Assembly (NCBI GenBank): GCA_030654175.1 | Contig: JAURXZ010000041.1 | Coordinates: 1 to 64,000, forward strand | Direction: 5' to 3' | Origin: Bacteroidia bacterium | GTDB taxonomy: Bacteria; Bacteroidota; Bacteroidia; 2-12-FULL-35-15 | Length of the DNA stretch: 64,000 bases | Shown here: positions 58,282 through 60,995 of the stretch, one piece after another | How the letters are laid out: each line of letters opens with the position of its first letter | Position numbering within the stretch: position 1 is the stretch's first letter | The notes under the pieces: model-generated | The model's input: the letters and a program-made list of their open reading frames with translations, nothing else | Databases searched by the model: none | What the model was told of the DNA's origin: nothing | Position numbers and translations under genes: made by a program

Positions 58282-60213
58282 TTAGTACATAAACTCCCAT
58301 GCAGATTTATAAGCATTGATTGATTCCGTATAATCAAGAAAGTTTTTATAAAAAGGATGATTGGCCAGTGTAGCACTATCTCCGATCACTACCAATTTTT
58401 TCTTGGCACGTGTGAGCGCTACATTCATTCTTCGAATATCATTTAAAAAACCAATTTCCTTCAGATCATTACTTCTTACTAAACTGATATAAATAACATC
58501 GCGTTCCTGTCCCTGAAATCCATCAACAGTTTTAATTGCAATTTGTGATCTGTAATTATTGAAATCCTCATCCTCCGCTACTTTGTTAACAAGATATTGT
58601 ACCTGCTCTTTGTAAGGAGAAATTATTCCGATAGTAATTCGCTTGCCCGATTTATTGCTTTGTGAATACTGCTCCAACACAAGCTTTAGATGTTTAATAA
58701 GTAATTGCGCTTCTTCAGGATTAGCAATACTTAAACTTTCCGGATTAATAATTTCATTGTACCCACACCCAGCAGTATCAATAAAATCAAATGGTGTATG
58801 CAACAAAAATTCATTGGGATCAAAACTCAACACCGTATCTTTTACAGAAGCATCAGCAACTAAGTTATTTTGATAGAATTTTTTATTCGAAAAATTCATG
58901 ATATGTTCATGCATCCGATACTGTGTATTGAGCATCACAGAAACATTATCTAAATTCATGCATTGCTCAAACAATGTTTCTTTCAGTCCTTCTACTTCCG
59001 CTTTTTTTGACTTAACAGTGGGAGGTAACTGAAAATGGTCACCGGCAAATATTACACGATCGCTTCTTGTAATTGGTATCCAGCACATCGGTTCTAAAGC
59101 TTGCGCTGCTTCATCAATAAAAACAGTGGTAAAATGTTTGTTGCGCATCATCTTACCGGATGATACCACAGGGGTGCAAGCAATTACTTGCGCCTTTTCA
59201 AATTGTTCCTCAAAAATATAATCTTCTAAATTACGTGCTTCGTGTAAAATTTTACGTGCTTCCATGTAAAACAATTGCCTCTGTTCACGTTCCTCTCTTC
59301 CAAATGTTCGTTTGTATTTTCCAGCCATGCGAAAATATTCTTCCGCAGTTTTGCGATATTTTTTTAACTCTTTATACGATTCGTGTGCTGCCATTTTTAC
59401 ATCCAGCGTATTCATCAGCACTTCTTCCGAAATACGCGCTGGATTACCCAATCGCAATACATTGATCCCTTCGCGATGCAATTTTTCTGTTAACAGGTCA
59501 ACAGCGGTATTGCTTGAACTGCAAACCAATACCTGTTTTTCTGTTAGTAATGTTTGACGTATGGCTTGCACCAAGGTGGTTGTTTTCCCGGTTCCCGGTG
59601 GGCCGTGAATAATAGCAATATCTTTAGCAGCAAGTATTTTTTGTACTGCATTATTTTGCGACTGATTTAATCCTGTAATGTGAATTGACTCATCTATTTT
59701 ATTGAATGCAGGAGGTTTGATTCCATACATCACATCCCGTAACATTGCCAAACGATTGTGTGATGCAGTGATCACTTTTTCCATCGCAATATCCATTTCA
59801 CGATAACTGCTTTCATCAAATAATAAATTGATCCCCAGTTTTCCATCATCGCACCAATCGGGCAATTCATCAATTGAAAGCGATAACCGAATTTTATTGG
59901 GATTAATTACTTTAATAATTCCATTAATTGGCTGTTCGTCAGGATAGGTATTTGAAAAAAGTGCAGCGCTTTTATTTCCGGAAAATTGATGTGGTTCATT
60001 ATGATTTGTAGTGCGTTCAATCTCAATGGAAAGATATTCGCCATGCCCGATCTCAACATTAGTAATCACTACAGGATACCATGTAACGCCTTTTTCTCTT
60101 CGGTAATTAATATTGTTACGGGAAAAATGTTGTTTGTACTGTGCGAAATCTTCATCACGCTCCACTTTTAAAAGCCTTCGTAAATTCAGTAATCTATCTA
60201 TTTGTTGTTCCAT
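58282..60213 (-). CDS. Superfamily 1 DNA/RNA helicase (SMUBP2/IGHMBP2-like)
   Basis: A 643-residue ATPase. Walker A is GPPGTGKT at residues 204-211, with the motif II sequence VFIDEAAQALEP, motif III GDHFQLPPT, motif IV-like QYRMHEHIMNF, and motifs V-VI TVDGFQGQERDVIYISLVRS and NVALTRAKKKLVVIGD. The Q-motif-type GLNQSQNNAV comes just before. The overall shape matches the Upf1/IGHMBP2 group: an N-terminal beta domain (about 35-115), then the helicase core. It probably unwinds or remodels nucleic acid 5' to 3'; its cellular role in Bacteroidota is not known. Confidence 0.93.
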   Translation of the reverse strand: MEQQIDRLLNLRRLLKVERDEDFAQYKQHFSRNNINYRREKGVTWYPVVITNVEIGHGEYLSIEIERTTNHNEPHQFSGNKSAALFSNTYPDEQPINGIIKVINPNKIRLSLSIDELPDWCDDGKLGINLLFDESSYREMDIAMEKVITASHNRLAMLRDVMYGIKPPAFNKIDESIHITGLNQSQNNAVQKILAAKDIAIIHGPPGTGKTTTLVQAIRQTLLTEKQVLVCSSSNTAVDLLTEKLHREGINVLRLGNPARISEEVLMNTLDVKMAAHESYKELKKYRKTAEEYFRMAGKYKRTFGREEREQRQLFYMEARKILHEARNLEDYIFEEQFEKAQVIACTPVVSSGKMMRNKHFTTVFIDEAAQALEPMCWIPITRSDRVIFAGDHFQLPPTVKSKKAEVEGLKETLFEQCMNLDNVSVMLNTQYRMHEHIMNFSNKKFYQNNLVADASVKDTVLSFDPNEFLLHTPFDFIDTAGCGYNEIINPESLSIANPEEAQLLIKHLKLVLEQYSQSNKSGKRITIGIISPYKEQVQYLVNKVAEDEDFNNYRSQIAIKTVDGFQGQERDVIYISLVRSNDLKEIGFLNDIRRMNVALTRAKKKLVVIGDSATLANHPFYKNFLDYTESINAYKSAWEFMY

Positions 60214-60307
60214 TCTTTTTTATTTTTACCTGAAATTTGCGACTTCATTTTGACTCTTAAGCATTAGTATTTTACAAATTTTAATTCTTATAAAAATTTA
60301 ATTCATT

Positions 60308-60404
60308 TGGGCGTTCCCTTTCTTAAAAAAGAAAGGGCCGGGCTTTTCGTTCCAATCTTCCCCGATAAAAATCGGAGAAGGATTTCCACTGCAATCCCTA
60401 ACGC
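60308..60404. ncRNA. Candidate structured repeat/ncRNA element
   Basis: An outer stem GCGTT/AACGC (60311-60315, 60400-60404) encloses two hairpins. The first is CCCTTTCTT/AAGAAAGGG (60316-60324, 60329-60337, loop AAAA). The second is AATCTTC...CCGAT/ATCGG...GAA...GATT (about 60354-60384, loop AAAA). GGATT (60380-60384) can instead pair with AATCC (60393-60397). The single-stranded cores, such as CCGGGCTTTTCG and TTTCCACTGC, look like conserved text. I recall close relatives in many bacteroidotal intergenic regions with variable hairpin tips; I cannot check this here. The strand is undecided. Confidence 0.55.
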
Positions 60405-60620
60405 AACATTTGCAACCAAAGAACAGTGAATAAAATTATATCTTTTTTATCAGAACCTGGTTTAATACAATTTTACAGAAAACCACCGATAAAATGCATG
60501 AAAAAGATCAATAATTAGTTTGTTTTTCAAAATCACATTAAAAATCGCAAAATATTTTTATATTTAACTACTTAATTTTCAGTATACTGAAAAATATATT
60601 TAAAATAAATGATACATAAT

Positions 60621-60656: not shown

Positions 60657-60995
60657 ATGTATTCATCAGAACTAATAAAAGGAACTTTAAAAACGATCAT
60701 TTTAAAGTTATTATCCGAAAACAAAGAAATGTACGGATATGAAATCACCCAAAAAGTGAAAGACCTAACGGACAATAAAATTCAGATCACCGAAGGTGCA
60801 TTATATCCAACACTTCATGCACTTGAAAATGATGGAATTGTAACTACCGAAATAGTGAACATCGGAAAACGTGTACGCAAATATTATAAGCTTACGCCAA
60901 AAGGAAAAAACAGTGCAACTGAAAAAGTGACTGAGTTTGCCGACTTCATCAATACGATGAAATTTTTATTAGACATTAAACCACAATTAGGATAA
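60657..60995 (+). CDS. PadR family transcriptional regulator
   Basis: A 112-residue winged-helix regulator, starting at ATG 60657 (MYSSELIKGTLKTIIL). The DNA-binding part is MYGYEITQKVKDLT...ITEGALYPTLHALENDGIVTTE, the standard PadR recognition block. KVTEFADFINTMKFLL forms the C-terminal dimer helix. A longer frame from 60609 would begin inside the promoter and is rejected. The stop TAA shares its last base with the ATG of the next gene, so the two are translationally coupled. PadR proteins often repress their own operon and respond to membrane or phenolic stress; here the sensor target is likely the partner membrane protein. Confidence 0.9.
   Translation: MYSSELIKGTLKTIILKLLSENKEMYGYEITQKVKDLTDNKIQITEGALYPTLHALENDGIVTTEIVNIGKRVRKYYKLTPKGKNSATEKVTEFADFINTMKFLLDIKPQLG

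Follow-up and report, generated by a model that had tools for sequence, protein, structure and literature searches.

A Flavo-1 copy with an extended three-way junction in a Bacteroidia genome and its probable nature as mobile palindromic DNA

The window analyzed here, a stretch of 64,000 nucleotides from a Bacteroidia bacterium, contains an intergenic palindromic element located between two divergent genes that encode a superfamily-1 helicase and a PadR-family regulator (Table 1). Comparison of the whole window with Rfam returned a single match, on the minus strand, to Flavo-1 (RF01705), with a score above the curated cut-off of the family, and the copy also carries the conserved internal-loop core and the RY/RY pair of that family. 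The element, which the original prediction had put forward as undescribed, is therefore a member of a family published in 2010, when Weinberg et al. reported it from Bacteroidetes as a motif of unknown function that is 'probably' RNA and probably not cis-regulatory (PMC2864571); Rfam types it as 'Gene; sRNA', and a later survey ranks it with the more abundant families of sRNA (PMC9029176). What is new is the extended junction, the existence of Clostridial members and a DNA-like behavior. The RF01705 model comprises the core and hairpin 1 only, with hairpin 2 and the closing stem lying beyond it; scored with our own covariance model of the full form, R1, which was built from 32 sequences that include the window copy itself, the latter reaches 114.6 bits (E 4.5e-30).

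Table 1. Features of the Flavo-1 locus, in window coordinates
Feature	Position	Strand	Remarks
Neighbor gene, AAA_11/AAA_12 superfamily-1 helicase	58282..60213	-	Pfam
Full Flavo-1 element, three-way-junction form	60303..60410	-	Own covariance model R1, DNA fold, covariation
Outer stem, arm 1	60311..60315		GCGTT on the plus strand; pairs with 60400-60404; covaries
Hairpin 2	60316..60337	-	9-bp stem, 4-base loop; hypervariable; outside the Rfam model
Part covered by Rfam	60332..60409	-	RF01705 model positions 1-76; 58.7 bits, curated cut-off 42 bits
Inner helix P2, one arm	60340..60342		Pairs with 60396-60398; alignment columns 13-15 with 75-77
Core half 2	60344..60355	-	TTGNARYGNAA, two GNA motifs and RY; 111 parsed copies
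Hairpin 1 with helix P4 (AATC/GATT)	60354..60384	-	Variable tip; 111 parsed copies
Core half 1	60384..60395	-	TTGNARYGNAA; RY pairs with RY of half 2 (60389-60349, 60388-60350)
Inner helix P2, other arm	60396..60398		Pairs with 60340-60342
Outer stem, arm 2	60400..60404		AACGC on the plus strand; pairs with 60311-60315; covaries
Neighbor gene, PadR-family regulator, divergent from the helicase gene	60657..60995	+	Pfam

The outer 5-bp stem, the perfect 9-bp hairpin with an AAAA loop (CCCTTTCTT at 60316-60324, AAGAAAGGG at 60329-60337) and the interrupted hairpin, also with an AAAA loop, can all be read from the sequence as had been predicted; the proposed limits, 60308-60404, are correct at the end of the stem and three bases early at its start. 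The strand has to be amended as well, since it is the minus strand, and not the plus strand, that folds and is conserved. Plus-strand RNA folds moderately better than shuffled sequences (z -1.7) and the minus strand does so to a larger extent (z -3.0 as RNA, z -3.85 as DNA), the DNA minimum-energy fold of the window minus strand being essentially the three-way junction. The minus-strand consensus, TGCGTKAGGGATTGYARYGNAAATCC-(hairpin 1)-GATTGNARYGNAAAGCCCG-(hairpin 2)-MACGCCCAAAT, is organized into an outer stem GCGTK/MACGC, an inner helix GGG/CCC, the core and a helix AATC/GATT that leads into hairpin 1, with hairpin 2 placed between the core and the outer stem. Within the core, two TTGNARYGNAA segments face each other and delimit two symmetric GNA/GNA internal loops, so that the whole is two-fold self-complementary: a T-A pair, GNA versus GNA, the R-Y and Y-R pairs, and GNA versus GNA again. 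Sheared G.A pairing is possible in loops of this GNA/GNA type, which are restricted to the minus strand because the other strand would oppose T to C.

The conservation of this fold is borne out by variation among copies. In the 111 copies that could be parsed, the A and G of the GNA motifs are nearly invariant, although these copies were picked by a pattern that already demands most core bases (20 of 131 failed it, several by single core changes); the RY/RY step occurs as GC/GC in 57, AC/GT in 44, GT/AC in 6 and other forms in 4. Conversely, the tips are highly variable, with 53 distinct versions of hairpin 1 in the same 111 copies (Watson-Crick at 842 of 859 positions) and 92 distinct versions of hairpin 2 among 100 copies, which agrees with the expectation of a structured element with a conserved core and variable tips. 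The outer stem alternates between GCGTT/AACGC and GCGTG/CACGC in the copies of this genome, and is GAGTT/AACTC in Clostridia. Shuffling of partners between copies lowers pairing in every helix tested, the observed value being reached in 0 of 1000 shuffles each. In the 32-sequence alignment, which includes Clostridial members, 99.4% of the cells are paired, double-change cells amount to 77 versus a shuffled mean of 20.2 (0 of 500 shuffles, under a control that ignores the relatedness of the copies) and the covariation score is 0.319 versus 0.105; the slid control is biased in favor of the structure because the latter was drawn partly by eye from the same sequences. Covariation, a test that the original prediction had proposed, is therefore strong.

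The same data indicate which of two folds is conserved. The segment GGATT at 60380-60384 can indeed pair with either AATC (60354-60357) or AATCC (60393-60397), and it had been suggested that the two folds compete. The variable pair of P2 is GC in 27, CG in 3, AU in 1 and UA in 1 of the 32 aligned sequences, and relatives show double substitutions, to C-G, A-T and T-A, in the middle of the GGG/CCC helix; since these preserve the main fold and break one pair of the alternative, the fold with AATC at 60354-60357 is the conserved one, and a switch based on GGATT/AATCC was rejected. Imperfect pairs point in addition to the strand involved: in P1, P3 and hairpin 1, read on the sense strand of what are not independent copies, G.T outnumbers A.C by 19 to 4 (p 0.003), which suggests that the sense strand folds as a single strand. 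Hairpin 2 alone lacks this excess (6 versus 11), and its inclusion renders the difference not significant (25 versus 15, p 0.15). The covariation demonstrates selection for folding of one strand and is silent as to whether that strand is RNA or single-stranded DNA; the G.T excess is also compatible with RNA.

The placement of the copies was considered next. BLAST recovers 40 copies in the same genome and the Rfam model, run on 150 of 1322 candidates, at least 134 matches, of which at least 130 exceed the cut-off (131 of the 134 extracted with flanks), numbers that speak against chance resemblance. None of 130 copies lies inside a gene predicted by our own simple gene calls. When the flanking genes are in tandem, the sense strand of Flavo-1 agrees with theirs in 39 cases and opposes it in 43 (p 0.74), and no bias with respect to the replication strand was seen by local GC skew, a weak test on a draft genome (p 0.86). 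A rough comparison with background gaps from the same loci, each 60 bases or longer, shows an excess of copies in convergent gaps (34 of 130 versus 19 of 152, p 0.004) and a deficit in divergent ones (14 of 130 versus 34 of 152, p 0.011), the window copy belonging to the latter 14. Whatever their orientation, copies tend to gather a few tens of bases from stop codons.

These figures bear on two explanations of Flavo-1 as a transcribed signal. A genuine structured ncRNA, be it an sRNA or an UTR element transcribed from neighboring genes or from promoters of its own, would account for the strong covariation and the tolerance of G-U pairs on the sense strand, and would accord with the judgement of Weinberg et al. 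of a probable RNA that is not cis-regulatory (PMC2864571); its random orientation relative to neighboring genes does not fit such a role, nor do the differences in sites between close species, the inversion of one orthologous copy described below and the lack of promoter enrichment at the window copy (3 found versus 3.1 expected). Published transcript data on the expression of Flavo-1 as RNA are ambiguous, since in F. psychrophilum some transcribed 5' regions coincide with Flavo-1 whereas RNA-seq shows both orientations without strand preference and many copies outside transcribed regions (PMC9723704). On balance we deem an ncRNA improbable. The second explanation, a bidirectional terminator or protector of mRNA 3' ends that is selected at gene ends and repeated only secondarily, draws on the copies near stop codons in both orientations, their enrichment between convergent genes and a perfect hairpin that is identical when read on either strand; nevertheless, the window holds no T-run terminator signature, its copy is flanked by divergent genes, a terminator would need nothing nearly as elaborate as the conserved junction and internal loop, and presence varies among close relatives, all of which makes this explanation very unlikely.

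The variation among relatives was followed in G303, the closest relative available, a draft that is 83% complete and about 90% identical, with 84-96% identity in the matched flanks. Out of 16 orthologous sites readable across both flanks, Flavo-1 is present in G303 at ten (C34:328456, C16:111056, C17:36049, C31:303670 and C30:115858; C16:222765, C51:196583, C51:331175, C27:17120 and C21:85844) and absent at six (C34:329513, C34:126154, C31:142526, C27:476508, C31:484692 and C31:253548). Among the shared copies, that at C30:115858 is much altered in G303, that at C51:196583 almost identical, and that at C31:303670 lies in the opposite orientation, the only one of the ten to do so. In G313, a more distant congener, none of five sites tested holds Flavo-1. 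Absence in a relative may reflect loss instead of a lack of insertion, and the inverted copy could alternatively be an independent insertion; at the element-free sites of G303 the junctions are too diverged to define a base-exact empty site or a target-site duplication, and no base-exact empty site emerged at the window locus either, nearly all congeners having lost synteny on its right side.

Some of the G303 sites devoid of Flavo-1 hold other palindromic repeats, and such repeats also nest within the element. A second repeat (...CCTTCGACAAGCTCAGGATAAATTCC...) splits the first core half of several G303 copies at a recurring internal-loop position, AGGGAT|...|GCG, where the orthologue in our genome (G000) is intact; core interruptions by the repeat ending in CCTTCGACAAGCTCAGGATAAATTCC were observed at the G303 loci L258, L261, L268, L270 and L273 and at C31:266878 and C5:92058 of G000. 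A long palindrome, ACCTCACCCC...GGGGTGAGGT, is nested in hairpin 2 of some G000 copies, and the G303 counterpart at C34:328456 carries a short tip in its place, which means that replacement or insertion of tips occurs in place. In the relative G316, Flavo-1 with the ACCTCACCCC palindrome in hairpin 2 (compare L160:7862-8015) is found on many contigs, as if the composite itself had multiplied there. As a separate observation, about 110 bp of G000 inside an apparent leucine-rich-repeat coding region (L160:8241-8357) are missing from G303.

The family is indeed widespread in Bacteroidota, as the original prediction had suggested: 44 of the 296 sampled genomes of the phylum have matches, 36 of them over the cut-off, concentrated in one genus (g6) and patchy elsewhere. 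Copies from further genera of the phylum also possess hairpin 2 and the closing stem (L086 and L093, with a poorer match in L094). The Flavobacterium-like copies of g6 (L066 onward; the genus name is tentative) have a shorter form, TAGCCCCGAT...GCGGGAAATAGCTCC, which by eye has an outer pair AGC/GCT and an AAATA bulge in place of hairpin 2. Beyond the phylum, BLAST matched plasmid records of Paraclostridium bifermentans, four of which contain six matches in all that exceed the Rfam cut-off (50.7-64.2 bits). When 84,980 species genomes were scanned with a pattern, this form turned up in Romboutsia, in Paraclostridium and in related Peptostreptococcaceae, the Rfam model confirming 8 of 9 of these loci. 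The Clostridial copies have the full junction, with the outer stem changed but matching, inner pairs GCG/CGC, GAG/CTC, GTG/CAC or GGG/CCC, and a short hairpin 2 (TGGCGAAAGCCA and similar). They number 1-5 per genome, and most are carried by plasmids or short contigs. Inverted pairs of copies occur in several records, the P. bifermentans plasmids L400 and L401 included, and in two plasmids of this species the pair flanks an amidase region. Amidase, DUF1659, DUF2922, YvrJ and Mor-type genes are common to the plasmids L400, L401 and L403, in which Flavo-1 is close to the amidase gene. Few and often paired, the Clostridial copies give the impression of a retained function and not of a parasite that multiplies. 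No Flavo-1 match came from 50,697 phage records, and hits of a degenerate core pattern in viral contigs were discarded as apparent chance matches (Flavo-1 in 0 of 14 tested). A strong match to ROOL RNA (327 bits) was also noted in Romboutsia sedimentorum at L411:4680-5222.

If Flavo-1 moves, the RAYT (TnpA-REP) enzymes are candidates, in particular those of group 5 or subclass 2.6, which are typical of Bacteroidota, are flanked by 'atypical secondary structures' and have REPs that likewise lack GT[AG]G (PMC6006769). Two such genes, classed by their Tyr motif, are present in G000 (L035:1120-1890 and L034:1120-2050), and RAYTs are commoner in Flavo-1 genomes (22 of 44 versus 58 of 252, p 0.0004, uncorrected for relatedness). 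Both local genes, however, are flanked by palindromes of their own (GCAGGCGCGAGTG...CACTCGTGCC and GTCACTAAGCGCAGCTTAGCGCC) that are unrelated to Flavo-1; no copy lies within 1.5 kb of the RAYT gene at 30 loci of the phylum; and several Flavo-1-rich genomes have no RAYT. For Y1 (RAYT/IS200) transposases at large, 226 kb around 68 loci yielded one Flavo-1 match, and a Y1 match was absent from 4 of 24 Flavo-1-rich genomes, so that these searches revealed no mobilizing enzyme. On these grounds a RAYT acting in cis was rejected, and we have not filed Flavo-1 as a RAYT-moved REP, an origin that we regard as most unlikely. Just beyond one Y1 transposase gene (Tyr motif YIENQEEHH), at L031:2334-2514 of contig C27, three tandem weak matches to Acido-Lenti-1 occur (32.6-33.9 bits, cut-off 37), perhaps another repeat filed as RNA.

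Even orientation, gene avoidance, presence or absence between relatives, the inverted allele, nesting and the published RNA-seq fit mobile palindromic DNA better than an sRNA gene, so that of the two options initially contemplated, an RNA or a mobile palindromic unit, the evidence favors the second. The window element is a Flavo-1 copy and probably a dispersed non-coding palindromic DNA of the REP/MITE kind that is moved in trans as a folded single strand. According to the mechanism we propose, the minus (Flavo-1 sense) strand, and not a transcript, would be the selected form; when single, e.g. at the replication fork, it would fold into the three-way junction with its two GNA/GNA loops, and a postulated structure-specific enzyme acting in trans would recognize the fold and move, copy or flip the element between intergenic sites. 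The hairpin tips, being dispensable, would be free to vary and to accept other palindromic repeats, and purifying selection would act against copies in genes and promoters, so that most of those that remain lie behind stop codons. A bolder proposition, which we offer tentatively and hold to be possible rather than probable, is that Flavo-1 represents a new kind of single-stranded DNA mobile element, not an sRNA, whose GNA/GNA junction is recognized in trans, and which has passed between Bacteroidota and the plasmids of Clostridia, where an inverted pair has been retained at a conserved plasmid locus. Should Flavo-1 be mobile DNA, many annotated 'sRNA genes' in Bacteroidota would be misfiled, and a DNA element would be shown to give rise to covariation, which by itself is usually taken as the mark of a structured RNA. 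The junction as extended here and the copies on Clostridial plasmids provide concrete bait for an enzyme search.

Among known repeat systems, REP/BIME elements and their RAYTs offer parallels in layout: Flavo-1 is likewise short, palindromic, intergenic, of high copy number, present in both orientations near gene ends and endowed with one strand that has a conserved imperfect fold. It differs from a REPtron in that its 5' ends are GCGTT or GCGTG, without GT[AG]G at the hairpin foot, in its larger three-way junction and in the absence of copies flanking a cognate RAYT gene. Like a MITE, it is about 110 bp long, non-coding, dispersed, variably present at orthologous sites of relatives and bounded by imperfect inverted ends (GCGTT/AACGC plus a weak outer repeat, TTCATT.G/CAAATGAA), whose arms also belong to the fold. 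In the loci analyzed, neither a parent transposon nor a target duplication turned up; MITEs usually need no covarying internal structure, whereas that of Flavo-1 is conserved with covariation. Integron attC sites, compared here solely for the way they work, share the single-stranded fold, conserved core and variable tips, and there is a short resemblance at GCGTTAG; Flavo-1 consists of dispersed single copies without a cassette array. With respect to Rfam Flavo-1 itself, the element belongs to the same sequence family, with its minus strand over the cut-off; the differences are that the model ends before hairpin 2 and the closing stem, that the published taxon is Bacteroidetes only, and that a family filed as sRNA displays here a full junction, Clostridial members and the behavior of DNA.
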